Of a DNA stretch of 23,892 bases, positions 7,412 to 23,892 are shown one piece after another (the first letter of the stretch is position 1; each line of letters starts with the position of its first letter). Under the pieces are notes generated by a model. The model had not been told where the DNA came from. It ran no database searches and worked only from the letters and a program-made list of their open reading frames with translations. The position numbers and the translations under genes are program-made. Where the stretch lies: the IMG/VR virus record IMGVR_UViG_3300020293_000088, positions 1 through 23,892 of that record; one strand, 5' to 3'. The stretch is from a virus.

Positions 7412-9720
7412 ATGGGGAAATCAAAGTCGTCAAGTCAGACGGGTCAAAAGTTGAAATCAATCTAGACAAAATACACAAAATGGTTCATAAAGCTTGTAAG
7501 AGAATTACAGGTGTATCAGAATCATTAGTAGAAATGAACAGTGGTATACAGTTTTTTGATGGTATCACTACAAAAGAAATACAAAAGATACTTGTCAAAA
7601 GTGCAAGTGATTTGATATCATTAGAGAATCCTAATTATCAGTTTGTGGCTGCAAGATTATTACTCTTTGGAATTCAGAAACAAGTATTCAATACAAAGTG
7701 GAAAGACGCAGAAATATATCCACCACTCAAAGACATAACAAAAAGAAATATAGACTATGGTGTATACGATAAAGATATACTATCATGGTATACAGACGAG
7801 GAGATTGATAAGTGTGATACATTTATCAAACACTCAAGAGACCTAAACTTTACCTATGCTGGACTACAACAGATTGTAGATAAGTATTTGGTTCAAGATA
7901 GGTCAACAGGAACGGTGTATGAAACACCACAGTTCATGTATATGTTAATATCCATGACACTTTTCAAAAACTACGATAATGAAATAAGGTTAGACTATGT
8001 CAAAAGATACTACGACGCAATCAGTGGATTCAAAATCAATATACCAACACCTATCATGGCGGGAGTTCGAACTCCTTTACGACAATTTGCATCGTGTGTG
8101 CTCGTTGACACAGACGACACTCTCGACAGTATATTCTCAAGTGATATGGCCATTGGAAAATATGTTGCACAACGAGCTGGAATCGGTATTAACGCAGGAA
8201 GAATTAGGGGACTTGGTTCTAGGATTAGAGGAGGCGAAGTCCAGCATACGGGAGTCGTCCCATTCCTTAAAAAATTTGAATCAACTGTTAGGTGTTGCAC
8301 CCAAAACGGAGTCAGAGGGGGTTCAGCAACAGTTCACTTTCCAATATGGCACCAAGAAATCGAAGACATTATTGTCTTAAAGAACAACAAAGGAACAGAG
8401 GACAACCGTGTAAGAAAACTAGATTACTCTATACAGTTTAGTGAATTATTCTACAAAAGATTTCTTGCAAATGAGGATATAACTCTTTTCTCTCCACATG
8501 AAGCTCCAGGCTTATATGAAGCATTTGGAACAGAGGAGTTCAATGAGTTATATGAAAAGTATGAAAGGGCAACTTCCATACCAAAGAAAAAAGTAAATGC
8601 AAGAGAACTAATTACAGATTTATTGAAAGAAAGAGCAGAGACTGGCAGAATCTATATCATGAATATAGACCATAGTAATACTCATAGTTCGTTCTTGGAT
8701 AAAGTAAACATGAGTAATTTATGTCAAGAGATTACACTACCAACAGACCCTATCCAACACATAGAAGGACAGGGTGAGATTGCATTATGTATATTATCTG
8801 CAATCAATGTTGGTATTGTAAAAGATGAAGAGTTGGAATCTCTTTGTGATTTATCAGTGAGAGGACTTGAAGAACTGATAGATTTTCAAGAGTATCCAGT
8901 GAATGCAGCGAAGGTATCTACAGAGTCAAGAAGAAGTCTTGGTATCGGATACATAGGACTGGCACACTACCTTGCAAAGAACAAGGTCAAGTATGATGAC
9001 CCAAATGCATGGAAACTGGTTCACGATTTGACGGAGAGATTCCAATATTACCTTCTAAAATCTAGTAATACAATTGCAAAAGAAAAGGGTCAATGTGCAT
9101 ACTTTGACAGAACAAAATATTCAAAAGGTATATTACCTATTGATACATATAAAAAAGATGTTGACGAGCTTGTTGAACCCATATATACTATGCCTTGGGA
9201 AGACTTGAGGAAAGACATTGCAGAGTTTGGTCTACGACACTCTACACTCACTGCACAAATGCCGTCAGAGAGTTCTAGCGTCGTCTCTAATGCAACGAAT
9301 GGTATAGAACCACCTAGAGACCATCTATCGGTTAAGAAGAGTAAGAAAGGAACACTTAAACAGGTTGTTCCACAGTATTCTTTACTCAAAAATGCATATA
9401 CTATATTATGGGATATGCCTGATAACACAGGTTATATCAATGTAGTTGCAGTTATGCAGAAGTTTTTTGACCAAGCAATCAGTGGAAACTGGTCTTATAA
9501 TCCCGAGAACTATGAAAATGGTGAAGTCCCTGTATCTGTAATGGCAAGAGACTTACTCAACACATACAAATATGGTTGGAAGACTTCTTATTATCAGAAT
9601 ACTATGGACGGAAAGGTTGAAGATGTAATTACAGACCCTAATTCAGCGTCGAATGATTATATACCACCCTTGATAGATTCACCAAACAGTGAGGAAGATT
9701 GTGATGCGTGTGCAATTTGA
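7408..9720 (+). CDS. nrdA: Ribonucleotide reductase class Ia alpha subunit
   Basis: A 770-aa large subunit that reduces ribonucleoside diphosphates to deoxyribonucleotides using a radical passed from NrdB. It has an N-terminal ATP-cone (about 3-92), active-site N437, C439 and E441 within S-N-L-C-Q-E-I, the redox pair C230 (in F-A-S-C-V-L-V-D) and C461 (in I-A-L-C-I-L-S-A), and the radical-transfer tyrosine pair in T-S-Y-Y-Q-N-T. The C-terminus ends C-D-A-C-A-I, the swinging dithiol reduced by glutaredoxin or thioredoxin. A glutaredoxin gene lies in the same operon, about 2.7 kb downstream. Length and residue numbering closely match E. coli and T4 NrdA. No intron or inserted endonuclease is seen. 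It overlaps the primase by 4 nt. Confidence 0.97.
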   Translation: MNGEIKVVKSDGSKVEINLDKIHKMVHKACKRITGVSESLVEMNSGIQFFDGITTKEIQKILVKSASDLISLENPNYQFVAARLLLFGIQKQVFNTKWKDAEIYPPLKDITKRNIDYGVYDKDILSWYTDEEIDKCDTFIKHSRDLNFTYAGLQQIVDKYLVQDRSTGTVYETPQFMYMLISMTLFKNYDNEIRLDYVKRYYDAISGFKINIPTPIMAGVRTPLRQFASCVLVDTDDTLDSIFSSDMAIGKYVAQRAGIGINAGRIRGLGSRIRGGEVQHTGVVPFLKKFESTVRCCTQNGVRGGSATVHFPIWHQEIEDIIVLKNNKGTEDNRVRKLDYSIQFSELFYKRFLANEDITLFSPHEAPGLYEAFGTEEFNELYEKYERATSIPKKKVNARELITDLLKERAETGRIYIMNIDHSNTHSSFLDKVNMSNLCQEITLPTDPIQHIEGQGEIALCILSAINVGIVKDEELESLCDLSVRGLEELIDFQEYPVNAAKVSTESRRSLGIGYIGLAHYLAKNKVKYDDPNAWKLVHDLTERFQYYLLKSSNTIAKEKGQCAYFDRTKYSKGILPIDTYKKDVDELVEPIYTMPWEDLRKDIAEFGLRHSTLTAQMPSESSSVVSNATNGIEPPRDHLSVKKSKKGTLKQVVPQYSLLKNAYTILWDMPDNTGYINVVAVMQKFFDQAISGNWSYNPENYENGEVPVSVMARDLLNTYKYGWKTSYYQNTMDGKVEDVITDPNSASNDYIPPLIDSPNSEEDCDACAI

Positions 9721-10690
9721 AGATAGAACTATAGAATACGAAGTAAAAGAATCAGGAATGAGGGGTAAAACTAATCCCGAAACTTGGAAGTTGTGGAAGA
9801 AAGGTTATGTCGTTCTAAAAGATTTCATACCAAAGGATATTATACAAATGACTTTGGATACATGGAAAACTGTAGAACATACAGAACAGTTCAGTCATAT
9901 AGTATATCGAGAAGACGATATTATACACAACTCACCCGAAGATTCACTACAAAAATCTATGGGTTGTTATAATGCACCATGGGGTGTTGCATTACACAGA
10001 TATTGTTGGGATAAACTCAAAGGTGTAATCGATATGGATTTAGGTGAAACCTATTCATATTCTAGAAAGTATGAAAGAGGTGCATATCTAAAAGCACATG
10101 CAGATAGACCAAGTTGTGAAATAAGTGCAACACTATGTTTGGACTATCAGTCAGATGACGAAAGACCTTGGCCAATATGGGTCGACAACTCAACTGATTG
10201 GGTAAACAAACCAGGCGAGATATATGACAACACACAAGCAGTTCCGATTAAGAAGAGAAGGAAAGAATCCATATCTGTATTATTAGAACCTGGCGACTTG
10301 TTAATGTATCAGGGCCCAAATGTTGCACACTGGAGAGAGTATTTTTTAGGTAAATATTCCTATCACATATTCTTACATTTTTACAATAAGAAAGGACGGG
10401 TAATTGATACTCCAGGCTATAACGAATTATACAGAGAACTTTATCCCAAGCATGAAGGATTTACAAGACACCCGTGTAGATATGACGGAAGAAAATCTAG
10501 ATATCATGGTATAGAACCCATATTAGAAAGAGAACTCTTTGAAGAATACTCAAAGAGGTGTTGGGAACACGACATATATGGAGAAACAAATACTAGAAAG
10601 TCTGATTTTATAAACAATTTTGATAGTTATGAATACTTTGATAGAAAGGCACATAGAGAAAAGAAGAAAGCACAGAGAAAACAAAAATGA
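9704..10690 (+). CDS. 2OG-Fe(II) oxygenase family protein between nrdA and nrdB
   Basis: A 328-aa protein with a double-stranded beta-helix oxygenase core. The metal triad is visible as H132-x-D134 (in K-A-H-A-D-R-P) and H209 (in N-V-A-H-W-R-E), after the conserved S-Y-S-R-K-Y-E-R-G-A-Y strand. Such enzymes couple 2-oxoglutarate decarboxylation to hydroxylation, often of proline or other side chains; the substrate here is unknown. The frame opens at a GTG (9689), but the ATG at 9704 has GAGGAAG at good spacing and gives a 17-nt overlap with nrdA, so I prefer it. The last ATGA overlaps nrdB by 4 nt. The K/R-rich C-terminal tail (about 285-328) is outside the catalytic fold. Its lodging inside the nrdA-nrdB unit suggests co-expression, not a known role in dNTP synthesis. 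Confidence 0.85.
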   Translation: MRVQFEDRTIEYEVKESGMRGKTNPETWKLWKKGYVVLKDFIPKDIIQMTLDTWKTVEHTEQFSHIVYREDDIIHNSPEDSLQKSMGCYNAPWGVALHRYCWDKLKGVIDMDLGETYSYSRKYERGAYLKAHADRPSCEISATLCLDYQSDDERPWPIWVDNSTDWVNKPGEIYDNTQAVPIKKRRKESISVLLEPGDLLMYQGPNVAHWREYFLGKYSYHIFLHFYNKKGRVIDTPGYNELYRELYPKHEGFTRHPCRYDGRKSRYHGIEPILERELFEEYSKRCWEHDIYGETNTRKSDFINNFDSYEYFDRKAHREKKKAQRKQK

Positions 10691-19007: not shown

Positions 19008-19037
19008 TTGACAATACCCATGGTTTTCATGTATAAT
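19008..19037 (+). promoter_or_regulatory. Consensus sigma-70 promoter TTGACA-N18-TATAAT
   Basis: TTGACA (19008-19013) and TATAAT (19032-19037) are both perfect, with an 18-nt spacer. The predicted start near 19044 coincides with the ATG at 19045, giving a leaderless or one-base-leader mRNA. The promoter begins 7 nt after the stop of the 39-aa peptide gene and would drive the DoxX-like gene cluster. Confidence 0.72.
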
Positions 19038-21405: not shown

Positions 21406-21995
21406 GTAAGTATCACAACAAATATACAGGATTCTTCACAGAAGATGAATGTTCATTTATTTGTGATATCATACAACGAGATAAAGACCTAATACCCACA
21501 GACGAATATAACGGAAGTGGATATACAGGTCTTACCTCGTCCTTTACACTATACAACTGGTTATATCACCCCGATATACAAACTCTTAATATACCACAAA
21601 GACTATCTAAATTAAAAGAATTCAAGTCTGATTATCTTCTTATGCAATGTTGGTGTAATGAACTAGAGACAGATAAAGGTTTACAGATACATGCACATGG
21701 TAATCCCAGTAGAGCAGAACTCTTTTATAATTGTAATATCTTTCTTGGTGGTGATTATACAGAAACTTGGTATGAGGATATAGGGAACATACAAAACGAG
21801 GTCGGAGATTTACATATATTTACGAGTGACCTAGAACACGAAGTATATCCAAATCCTACAGACAAACCAAGATATTCCATGGCTATTGATATACACAGGT
21901 CATACTATCATTGTCGGGGTCTGTTTAACAACGCCCGATTCTACATATACCCTACGAGACTCGCGGACTACTCACGAGAATCTTTAGGACTATAA
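21387..21995 (+). CDS. Putative 2OG oxygenase-fold protein, H-x-H type
   Basis: A 202-aa protein resembling small double-stranded beta-helix oxygenases: F-F-T-E-D-E-C-S-F-I in the first helix, L-M-Q-C-W-C-N, then L-Q-I-H102-A-H104-G-N, core strands Y-N-C-N-I-F-L-G-G-D-Y and G-D-L-H-I-F-T, distal H151 in L-E-H-E-V-Y-P-N, and R162-Y-S-M-A-I-D-I in the 2-oxoglutarate position. H-x-H replaces H-x-D, as in the 15358 gene. It overlaps the 297-aa gene by 19 nt and, tail to tail, the opposite-strand gene by 28 nt. Enzyme activity is likely but unproven. Confidence 0.7.
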   Translation: MDIEGISKYHNKYTGFFTEDECSFICDIIQRDKDLIPTDEYNGSGYTGLTSSFTLYNWLYHPDIQTLNIPQRLSKLKEFKSDYLLMQCWCNELETDKGLQIHAHGNPSRAELFYNCNIFLGGDYTETWYEDIGNIQNEVGDLHIFTSDLEHEVYPNPTDKPRYSMAIDIHRSYYHCRGLFNNARFYIYPTRLADYSRESLGL

Positions 21996-22687
21996 TACCA
22001 ATTCTTATTCACAACCTTTTCAGAAGTCCATTCGGGGACATTTCTCCATACTTCCATATCGGGTTGTTTCTTAATAGTTCCCATAATATTATAGTTGGTC
22101 ACCCAGCGGTCAGTCACATTATCCCCAATATAACTATGATATGAATAATTATAAGAAGGAACAAACATATAAGCTTTATTGACTTCCCAACCCAAATCCA
22201 CAGGTTCATGTTCTGCACGATAACCATTAAAGGTCGTAGGAACAGACTTCACGGGACACAGCGGATTTAATACAGTAATCAATTTCCCACCATCAGGGTG
22301 AGGTGGATAATACTTCATACCTTTAGGATTACCTTGGACTCTTTCCACAGGACATGTGTTTTCGTATATGTTCATATCGGAGTTATACTTATCGGGTGCA
22401 ATAACCTTATTCAAACAGCTATAATCAGCTAATGGGAATAACTCTCTCACATAATTCGGTATATTACCATTACGATAATGTTCATATATGTCTAATGATT
22501 TCTTACTTGGAGACTTCTGTATAGTCTTATTAGGGTATATTTCAAGGTCTATCGGAGAATGTCTATCTGCAATTTCAGTCTGTATTTCGAGTTCTTTGTC
22601 CGTAAGATAGTGAGGAATCTCCCAAACAGGCCCATATTTCGTGATATCTAGGGGACTTAAATTTATTTCAAAGGGTAGGAAATCCAT
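21968..22687 (-). CDS. Putative 2OG-Fe(II) oxygenase on opposite strand
   Basis: The only convincing - strand gene, 239 aa. It has W-E-I-P-H-Y-L at the N-terminus, the ligand pair H130-P-D132 in Y-Y-P-P-H-P-D-G-G-K, distal H184 in N-Y-S-Y-H-S-Y, and R194-W-V-T-N-Y-N for 2-oxoglutarate. The double-stranded beta-helix strands in between (K-L-I-T-V-L-N-P, A-Y-M-F-V-P-S) are typical. It is convergent with the previous gene and overlaps its 3' end by 28 nt. Two upstream control candidates are seen: a late-type AATAAATA box close to the start and a TTGACT-N18-TAATAT promoter farther away. The substrate is unknown; glycan- or peptide-modifying roles are only guesses. Confidence 0.78.
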   Translation of the reverse strand: MDFLPFEINLSPLDITKYGPVWEIPHYLTDKELEIQTEIADRHSPIDLEIYPNKTIQKSPSKKSLDIYEHYRNGNIPNYVRELFPLADYSCLNKVIAPDKYNSDMNIYENTCPVERVQGNPKGMKYYPPHPDGGKLITVLNPLCPVKSVPTTFNGYRAEHEPVDLGWEVNKAYMFVPSYNYSYHSYIGDNVTDRWVTNYNIMGTIKKQPDMEVWRNVPEWTSEKVVNKNWYYSPKDSRE

Positions 22688-22794: not shown

Positions 22795-22824
22795 ATATTA
22801 ACCACATATTTGGCGGGGAGTCAA
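22795..22824 (-). promoter_or_regulatory. Candidate - strand promoter TTGACT-N18-TAATAT
   Basis: On the - strand TTGACT (complement of 22819-22824) is followed after 18 nt by TAATAT (complement of 22795-22800). The -35 is embedded in the left arm of the inverted repeat. It would transcribe leftward to the oxygenase gene with an approximately 100-nt leader that contains an AGCCG/CGGCT hairpin (22777-22788). Confidence 0.4.
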
Positions 22825-22908
22825 GGCGTCTCGGAGGCCCCCTATATACGGGCCTTTCCGAGGGGGCGGAATATATGGCCTTTATTCGGCCTGGGGCCTT
22901 GACTTTTC
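22815..22908. repeat. GC-rich inverted repeat with nested hairpins
   Basis: AGTCAAGGC (22819-22827) and GCCTTGACT (22896-22904) are perfect inverted copies; as RNA the helix extends to 13 pairs with G-U (22815-22827 with 22896-22908). Inside, CTCGGAGGCCC (22830-22840) pairs with GGGCC-TT-TCCGAG (22850-22862) as 11 bp with a 2-nt bulge, and GGCC (22877-22880) with GGCC (22888-22891), or alternatively GAATA (22869-22873) with TATTC (22883-22887). This GC-rich island in an AT-rich genome could be a structured RNA, a replication control site, or two outward-facing promoters. Confidence 0.55.
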
Positions 22909-22936: not shown

Positions 22937-23173
22937 ATGAAAGAAATAGTTAACGGTTTAATATGTTCCAAGGTTGATTCCTCTAGTGAGAATGATATAG
23001 TTATCCCTCTTAATAGTAAGGAAATGCAACTCGCTATGGATAACAGTGACCGTATGAATGAATCATGGGCGCTTATGTGTGACTCTGTATACCAACGACT
23101 AGGTATAGAGATAATAGGTAAGCTGAATATTAATTTTATTGTAGTGAATGGCCTTGCAAAAGTCTTTCACTAG
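22937..23173 (+). CDS. Hypothetical protein (78 aa)
   Basis: A 78-aa protein starting at ATG 22937 without a ribosome site; CATATAGTATAAATGA around the start is identical to the sequence at the cytochrome c start. The product begins M-K-E-I-V-N-G-L-I-C-S-K-V-D-S-S-S and has M-Q-L-A-M-D-N-S-D-R-M-N-E-S-W-A-L-M-C-D, then G-K-L-N-I-N-F-I-V-V-N-G-L. No membrane helix or motif. Sitting right after a GC-rich control region, it may be an early-expressed protein. Identification is not possible. Confidence 0.6.
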   Translation: MKEIVNGLICSKVDSSSENDIVIPLNSKEMQLAMDNSDRMNESWALMCDSVYQRLGIEIIGKLNINFIVVNGLAKVFH

Positions 23174-23182
23174 TGGTATAAT
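23154..23182 (+). promoter_or_regulatory. Sigma-70-type promoter TTGCAA-N17-TATAAT
   Basis: TTGCAA (23154-23159), preceded by GGCC, is followed after exactly 17 nt by a perfect TATAAT (23177-23182). The -35 is inside the end of the 78-aa gene. The predicted start is near 23189. No credible ORF follows, so it would transcribe the hairpin-rich noncoding stretch. Confidence 0.6.
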
Positions 23183-23188
23183 AGGTGT

Positions 23189-23390
23189 ATAACTACGGAA
23201 TTGACTATACTATATGTCCGTGGATTGCTTTGAGTTAAGAGTATAGGGTCTCCAAACCGAGATTGGACGGGAGAAGATGAGATAGATTCTCCACATATAT
23301 TCTTTTTTGTGTCGGCGAAACACAATATATCGCCACGCATGTTATGGCTGCCACCTCTGAAAGCCCTGCTACTACGGCATATCAGAGGCC
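23189..23390 (+). ncRNA. Candidate noncoding RNA with serial hairpins
   Basis: Starting at the predicted start of the 23154 promoter, about 200 nt fold into a chain of stems: TCCAA-ACCGAGA-TTGGA (23251-23267), GGAGAA/TTCTCC (23270-23292), TTGTGT-CGGCGAA-ACACAA (23307-23325), with an alternative GGCGA/TCGCC (23314-23334), and CCTCTGA/TCAGAGG (23354-23388) enclosing 21 nt. No + strand ORF has a plausible start and length; a 16-codon frame at 23344 is the longest I consider. The series of perfect stems between two strong promoters suggests a functional RNA or an assembly of control elements. Confidence 0.45.
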
Positions 23391-23419
23391 TTGACAATGG
23401 CTGCAAAAAATGTTATAAT
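23391..23419 (+). promoter_or_regulatory. Perfect consensus sigma-70 promoter TTGACA-N17-TATAAT
   Basis: Both hexamers (23391-23396 and 23414-23419) match the E. coli consensus exactly, with the ideal 17-nt spacer. The -35 has the GGCC prefix shared with the promoters at 22899 and 23154. The hairpin CCTCTGA/TCAGAGG ends 2 nt upstream. The predicted start is near 23426. Confidence 0.75.
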
Positions 23420-23425
23420 AGTAGA

Positions 23426-23540
23426 AGCGCCACATAATTACACAGAATAGCCTTACAGAAAACAGTCATATGGGACTCCTACGAAAATTTCAGACCGCCT
23501 CAACGCCACCCCATGAAAGCCTGTGACCGTTTTTTATTTG
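23426..23540 (+). ncRNA. Candidate short RNA from the perfect promoter
   Basis: From the predicted start to the T-run at 23530-23535 is about 105 nt. ACAG (23462-23465) with CTGT (23521-23524) and ATGGG (23470-23474) with CCCAT (23510-23514) can form a closing helix just before the T-run, as in a poor intrinsic terminator. A 17-codon frame (23397-23450) and an 18-codon frame (23470-23526, opening M-G-L-L-R-K-F-Q) are present, so a leader peptide is possible. Either way the region is unlike the dense coding DNA elsewhere. Confidence 0.38.
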
Positions 23541-23571
23541 TCTATCAGAAAATTTTTTTTGGGAAAAACTA

Positions 23572-23581
23572 TATAGCTATA
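23572..23581. repeat. 10-bp palindrome TATAGCTATA
   Basis: TATAGCTATA is a perfect palindrome, and CTATA/TATAG (23569-23582) adds further pairing. It lies about 30 bp upstream of the -10 box of the promoter before the last gene, so it could be an operator. AT-richness lowers its weight. Confidence 0.3.
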
Positions 23582-23613
23582 GGTAAAACCCCCTTTCGCA
23601 CACCCACATAGTA

Positions 23614-23622
23614 TGATATAAT
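23614..23622 (+). promoter_or_regulatory. Extended -10 promoter TGATATAAT
   Basis: TG-N-TATAAT is a perfect extended -10. The -35 region is weak (TTCGCA at 23595-23600, spacer 16). The start would be near 23629, about 4 nt before the ATG at 23633. It drives the last, truncated gene. Confidence 0.5.
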
Positions 23623-23632
23623 GGTATTCAAT

Positions 23633-23892
23633 ATGACAAAAAATCAATTTACCAAGAAAGAATTAGAGAATAGTAAGAGAATATTCAAGTCTGCAACTCC
23701 CAAATATACACCTGATTGGTATGTAAAGTGGATTGCAAGTGTCTTTATATTAGCAGCTATGTCCTTAAGAGGTGTGGAAGGATTCGTTTTATATGACCTA
23801 TGGGCGTCTGTAATTGGTGTCTCACTATGGTTAGTAGTGAGTATATTATGGAAAGACCGTGCATTGGTATTATTAAATGGAGTCGGTTTATT
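23633..23892 (+). CDS. Partial small membrane protein (3' end outside window)
   Basis: Eighty-six codons are visible, with no stop before the window edge. The start at 23633 gives M-T-K-N-Q-F-T-K-K-E-L-E-N-S-K-R-I-F; an in-frame ATG at 23621 overlaps the -10 box and is unlikely. Two hydrophobic segments are seen (about 33-45, W-I-A-S-V-F-I-L-A-A-M, and 55-72, W-A-S-V-I-G-V-S-L-W-L-V-V-S), with a basic N-terminus and a K-D-R loop. It is probably an early-expressed membrane protein. No family is recognised. Confidence 0.65.
   Translation, partial: MTKNQFTKKELENSKRIFKSATPKYTPDWYVKWIASVFILAAMSLRGVEGFVLYDLWASVIGVSLWLVVSILWKDRALVLLNGVGL

Follow-up and report, generated by a model that had tools for sequence, protein, structure and literature searches.

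A candidate small RNA locus with a covarying pseudoknot RNA in an uncultivated lineage of T4-like phages

Introduction

The structured RNAs that lytic T4-like phages encode have received little study. A long gap ahead of a DUF6552 gene raises the question of whether such a phage encodes small RNAs there, uses the stretch as a replication origin, or simply carries ordinary intergenic DNA. The gap lies near the end of a 23.9-kb virus record, analysed here in its whole length and hereafter called the window. Judged by its sequence, the window comes from a T4-like phage, and primase, nrdA, and nrdB are consecutive in it, as in T4-like cyanophages. Its nrdA shares 73% identity with cyanophage proteins. 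Its primase shares no more than about 40% identity with that of any isolate, so the lineage is uncultivated. The psbA gene, considered as an indicator that the host is a cyanobacterium, was rejected because it is missing from nine related records.

An earlier note on this DNA had proposed that the gap could encode one or two small RNAs that hit host regulation early in infection, or form an origin. Here, we describe the relatives of the locus and the conservation of its elements, and we weigh the possible roles of the most conserved one, an RNA that we named RNA1. The coordinates of all features are given in table 1.

Results and Discussion

A Non-coding Gap with an Unremarkable Hairpin Content

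The 459-bp gap proved real and non-coding, as the earlier note had held: no convincing gene lies in the 447 bp (23174–23620) between ORF A and the DUF6552 gene. The true start of the latter is probably the ATG at 23633, and its homologues align from residues 2–9 onward. The gap contains only two ORFs, of 78 aa on the minus strand and of 42 aa on the plus strand. Neither has consistent homologues in the relatives according to tblastn, the best match covering 34 aa (E 0.001) at a single locus that overlies the conserved RNA. Homologous proteins in relatives were to count against a small RNA. The gap ORFs have none, but the homologous interval of many relatives does encode a small protein, ORF B, which the window does not carry. 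A direct blastn comparison of the gap with annotated phages gave no match beyond the chance level.

The gap had also been singled out for at least five perfect hairpins, a count that turns out not to exceed chance. Perfect hairpins with stems of at least 6 and loops of 3–12 numbered 2, against 1.4 ± 1.7 expected from dinucleotide shuffles, and those with stems of at least 5 numbered 10, against 5.0 ± 2.9. The folding energy relative to shuffles corresponded to z values of +0.61 for the whole gap, −0.7 for RNA1, and +0.3 for the second conserved element, RNA2. Since hairpin counts and minimum free energies fall within the range of the dinucleotide shuffles, both were rejected as evidence. The significance of the locus derives from comparative data, namely covariation, conserved promoters, and synteny; an argument from the window sequence alone would not carry the small-RNA claim. 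The reported T-run, the T8 at 23553, is the sole T8 on the plus strand of the window.

Table 1. Positions of the features of the locus in the window and of the tRNA-Gly genes in four relatives
Feature	Position	Strand	Description
ORF A	22937..23173	+	78 aa; conserved partner gene directly upstream of RNA1; 3' end includes the −35 box of promoter P1
Promoter P1	23154..23182	+	TTGCAA-N17-TATAAT; conserved immediately 5' of RNA1
RNA1	23183..23299 (covariance-model match)	+	Structured RNA, ~115 nt; 86.5 bits, E 4e-17, the window being one of the seed sequences of the model and this match being to its own seed
Pseudoknot a/a'	23193–23199 with 23217–23223	+	CTACGGA with TCCGTGG
Stem P1 (b/b')	23205–23211 with 23240–23246 (span 23205..23246)	+	CTATACT with AGTATAG
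Middle hairpin	23251..23267	+	TCCAA-ACCGAGA-TTGGA; from reading of the alignment
Hairpin HP2	23270..23292	+	GGAGAA-GATGAGATAGA-TTCTCC; loop of the conserved AUGAGA type; stem covaries
Hairpin 5' of P2	23354..23388	+	CCTCTGA/TCAGAGG; directly 5' of P2; similar hairpin in relatives
Promoter P2	23391..23419	+	TTGACA-N17-TATAAT, 12/12
RNA2 element	23461..23563	+	AACAGT..GGGACTCCTA..ACGCCACCCC..AAAATTTTTTTTGGG; fixed spacing in relatives
Candidate promoter P3	23595..23622	+	TTCGCA-N16-TATAAT; for the next gene; weak −35
DUF6552-domain gene	23621..23892	+	PF20189, E 2e-16; downstream of the gap
tRNA-Gly, L148	4221–4293		Anticodon TCC or ACC
tRNA-Gly, L146	874–946		Anticodon TCC or ACC
tRNA-Gly, L149	891–963		Anticodon TCC or ACC
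tRNA-Gly, L153	588–660		Anticodon TCC or ACC

Relatives of the Locus in Uncultivated Phages

Relatives were collected in four steps. Among the homologues of the DUF6552 gene were four loci that weakly resemble the window in nucleotide sequence around 23176–23228, and the shared motif CGTGGATTGC..GAG.TAAG, scanned in IMG/VR, led to further members. An alignment of ORF A then provided more divergent members, in which the sequence following ORF A differs and the fold is alike. Finally, a second conserved word located downstream, AACAGTNNTNNGGGACTCCTA, was used as a pattern and retrieved 46 stretches, among which 38 have RNA1 adjoining RNA2. As this RNA2 pattern holds no information on RNA1, the association of the two elements is independent of the way in which they were found. 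A looser pattern, GTGGATTGCNNNGAGNTNA, was dropped after a scan of viral contigs, where it mostly gave chance matches in coding sequence.

A covariance model of RNA1 with a seed of 27 sequences matches about 47 contigs of the uncultivated T4-like lineage, the seed included. Among the non-seed members are the contigs of L007 and L009, with L096 as a weaker match. Exactly one match was found in each of 12 of the 23 full records searched, including records of 146, 151, and 154 kb. A DNA search for the gap in nrdA-related contigs had given no match; the model later identified RNA1 in two of them. There was no convincing match in ten isolate T4-like genomes, T4 included, no match in the annotated phage collection, and no relevant match in Rfam 15 for the window or its relatives. 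By these searches, RNA1 would represent a previously undescribed RNA gene family, one that neither Rfam nor the annotated phage collection contains.

Scanned against genome contigs, the RNA2 pattern gave three matches, and a single one of these contigs carries the locus (L343, JAAXIF010000075.1). This contig is binned with a Sphingobacteriales metagenome-assembled genome. It is probably a phage contig inside that bin, possibly a hint to the host or possibly a contamination.

RNA1 Is Conserved as a Structure

We infer that RNA1 extends from about 23189 to 23292, with its 5' end near 23189. An H-type pseudoknot of the order a-b-a'-b' is followed by a small hairpin, the loop of which reads [A/G]CCGA, and then by hairpin HP2. 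Stem P1, the b/b' helix, encloses in its loop one pseudoknot strand as well as the motif GTGGATTGC...GAGTTAAG. In the window, the loop of the middle hairpin aligns with the conserved [A/G]CCGA loop.

The main helices of RNA1 covary strongly across the relatives, and the absence of covariation, which was to speak against the small-RNA reading, is decisively contradicted for RNA1. RNAalifold applied to an unconstrained MAFFT alignment of 27 sequences recovered stem P1 and HP2, with changes on both sides in 13 of the 15 pairs. When the structure was given, 93.9% of the RNA1 cells were paired, against 67.1 ± 1.6 after shuffling and 39–46% after sliding, and the covariation score reached 0.695, against 0.183 for the control. 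Compensatory changes thus exceed both the shuffle and the slide controls, as in structured non-coding RNAs.

RNAalifold cannot draw pseudoknots, and the pseudoknot was tested separately. Distinct self-complementary stems numbered 16 for stem P1, 19 for the pseudoknot, and 17 for HP2. After strands were swapped between sequences, full pairing was retained in merely 7/240, 16/342, and 16/272 combinations, respectively, for strands that had been picked because they pair and with those of L305 and L167 registered by hand. The bias due to this choice of strands was addressed by shuffling and refitting each sequence. The pseudoknot score of the window was reached by none of 100 sequences treated in this way. 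The result was strong for most sequences and weak for L305 (51/100), L310 (35/100), and L321 (23/100). Across the relatives, the loops are kept and the stem sequences drift.

Chance promoters and hairpins in ordinary intergenic DNA would agree with the hairpin numbers and folding energy seen in the window. They would not account for the covariation, the synteny, and the promoter conservation in about 47 contigs, and we give this explanation practically no credence. For RNA1, covariation already rules out a chance origin.

Promoters of the Locus

The sequences of the three promoters claimed in the earlier note are all exact, but the first, promoter P1, begins 20 bases before the gap, inside ORF A. 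Promoter-like sites are only modestly enriched in this part of the genome, with 24 sites between 20000 and 23892 against 18.8 ± 4.3 in shuffles. No other site in the window combines a 12/12 match with the 17-nt spacer of P2. Another perfect TTGACA/TATAAT pair, with an 18-nt spacer, is present at 19008–19037, upstream of an ORF at 19036.

Promoter P1 is conserved. A −35 box with at least 4/6 matches at a distance of 16–18 nt was found in 24 of 31 relatives, members excised by their −10 box, against 4.9 expected. The −10 box itself is also present in L353 and L354, which were found by the covariance model alone. In several members, including the window, the −35 box of promoter P1 falls inside the final codons of ORF A.

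GC-rich hairpins abut the −35 box (..GGCCTTGACA) of several promoters, at 23354–23396 and 22880–22905 in the window and at 8172–8217 in L166; they are perhaps terminators or insulators. A GC-rich inverted repeat at 22810–22905 of the window (AGTCAAGGC ... GCCTTGACT, −44.8 kcal/mol, z −1.9) separates a minus-strand ORF from ORF A, and its ends form the −35 regions of divergent promoters.

Features Downstream of RNA1

The locus shows the conserved order ORF A, promoter P1, RNA1, tRNA-Gly or ORF B, and RNA2. The feature that directly follows RNA1 varies among relatives and can be a tRNA-Gly gene, ORF B, RNA2, or another ORF. In four relatives, only a few bases separate HP2 from the start of the tRNA-Gly gene, which is missing from the window. 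Many relatives have P2 followed by ORF B (~57 aa, mostly 57–60 aa), which is thus located between P2 and RNA2, and the window, L322, L332, L334, and L343 retain P2 and RNA2 without ORF B. A clear terminator directly follows HP2 in L096 only, where HP2 runs straight into a T7 tract in the manner of an intrinsic terminator (GGGGGG..CCTCCC-TTTTTTT). RNA1 could therefore belong to a longer transcript or serve as a 5' leader.

The main rival to a trans-acting RNA1 is accordingly a cis-acting leader, be it a riboswitch, an attenuator, or a processing signal, for the next feature transcribed from promoter P1, whether ORF B, tRNA-Gly, or RNA2. Compact pseudoknots are typical of aptamers, RNA1 begins right at promoter P1, GC-rich hairpins often come after it, and in many relatives it precedes ORF B or tRNA-Gly. 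Yet RNA1 does not occupy a constant 5' UTR position before a constant class of gene, its downstream feature being tRNA-Gly, ORF B, other ORFs, or none at all. ORF B is often preceded by a strong promoter of its own, P2, which separates its start from RNA1, and neither the window nor L332 has a coding sequence after RNA1 within the element. On balance, we regard a leader function as unlikely.

RNA2 is treated as a real conserved element that may act as RNA or as DNA. The distance from AACAGT to the A/T run is 86–89 nt in most members, with a divergent intervening sequence; L148, L353, and L354 have shorter versions with the same two ends. We detected no covariation in RNA2: its consensus structure has only three near-invariant pairs, and a pairwise scan of the columns gave no ladder. 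Its designation as an RNA is therefore tentative. The A/T run was also considered as the coding leader of a small membrane protein and rejected, an ORF passing through the run in only about one-third of the members. RNA2 was observed without RNA1 in at least two stretches (L302 at 1554 and L316 at 693), indicating that the two elements are separable.

The fixed spacing inside RNA2 would suit a DNA element, and together with the strong promoters and an A4T8 tract unique on the plus strand of the window, it could point to a replication origin in which P1 and P2 transcripts prime at the A/T run. The origin put forward in the earlier note finds no support in the GC skew, which has no inflection at the locus in the near-complete records (151 and 154 kb) of two relatives. 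T4-type phages use several origins, which makes the skew result weak evidence against one. In addition, the constraint on RNA1 acts on base pairs of the transcript, pseudoknot included. An origin seems to us barely credible.

Comparison with Known RNAs

The GOLLD and ROOL RNAs are structured RNAs that occur in phages and near tRNAs. These large ornate RNAs (PMC12286853) are several times larger than RNA1, and none was found here by Rfam.

Two adjacent stable RNAs beside tRNA genes are known in the T4-type phage T4 itself, rnaC (139 nt) and rnaD (119 nt), where they are annotated merely as small stable RNAs (NC_000866). The placement of RNA1 directly before tRNA-Gly in four relatives recalls this arrangement, although in T4 it is the tRNA-Arg end of the cluster that rnaC and rnaD adjoin, unlike RNA1. 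With filters off, neither of two models showed similarity to them, the best scores in the rnaC/rnaD region being 6.1 and 2.2 bits, and a model search of the whole T4 genome gave a best E of 1.5.

In T4-like cyanophages and environmental data, the structured RNAs manA (RF01745), wcaG (RF01761), PhotoRC-II (RF01717), and glnA (RF01739) have been described as cis-regulatory leaders of metabolic genes (PMC2864571, PMC9964418). RNA1 gave no match to any of these families in Rfam 15 and differs from them in lacking a constant downstream gene.

ToxI, the RNA antitoxin of type III systems, consists of ~36-nt units repeated in tandem ahead of a toxin gene (PMC3475682, PMC10853763). Phage PhiTE carries a pseudo-ToxI, the expansion of which lets mutants escape ToxIN (PMC3475682). 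ToxI forms an H-type pseudoknot, and RNA1 has the features of one. With the PhiTE precedent, this makes it conceivable that RNA1 mimics ToxI and shields the phage from a ToxN-type RNase of the host; T4/RB69 Dmd also appears in the Foldseek list of ORF B, without significance (E 2.8–5.3, the chance level). RNA1, however, is present as a single copy per genome with no tandem or direct repeats, is about three times as long as a ToxI unit, and carries two additional conserved hairpins. No toxin gene lies next to it, neither ORF A nor the ORF B of the relatives having a Pfam, PHROG, or PADLOC match, and no relevant Rfam match was obtained. We consider such mimicry highly improbable.

A Putative Trans-acting RNA

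The proposal of one or two small RNAs thus stands in its anatomy, with a covarying RNA1 behind the conserved promoter P1 and a second conserved element behind P2; it falls short for RNA2, which does not covary. We think it probable that the gap is a small non-coding RNA locus in which promoter P1 drives a trans-acting RNA1 early in infection and P2 starts RNA2. Transcription from promoter P1 would produce an RNA of ~115 nt with the H-type pseudoknot, the [A/G]CCGA-loop hairpin, and the AUGAGA-loop hairpin, and transcription from P2 would produce the second conserved element, of fixed length. RNA1 would be made early from a host-type promoter and act in trans, its conserved single-stranded loops serving as contacts for a partner, either a protein or another RNA. 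A trans-acting RNA fits best because the stems change freely and the loops do not, because RNA1 is present in single copy behind its own promoter, and because the downstream feature is not constant. We found no target or partner of RNA1.

A bolder scenario combines RNA1 and RNA2 as the halves of a novel ribonucleoprotein or RNA machine of the phage. Made at the start of infection and joined by the small protein ORF A, whose gene is usually adjacent, it would disarm or reprogram an RNA-based process of the host (defence, translation, or RNA decay) across this uncultivated T4-like lineage. We regard it as a long shot. With its unusually clear covariation, its conserved promoter, and its usual partner gene, RNA1 is directly testable.

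Neighboring Proteins

ORF A has no Pfam, PHROG, PADLOC, or significant PDB match and no homologue among annotated phages. An alignment of 20 sequences shows invariant W, F, and H residues, and the predicted fold is β-β-α-α-β-β (pLDDT 90). The predicted fold of ORF B is β-β-α-β (pLDDT 94), with no family match and no significant PDB match by Foldseek. Elsewhere in the window, an ORF at 9689–10690, between nrdA and nrdB, matches a PHROG named ferrochelatase (E 4e-37) and no Pfam family. The sole large minus-strand gene of the window (21968–22687), which has no family match, is apparently syntenic in the relatives.
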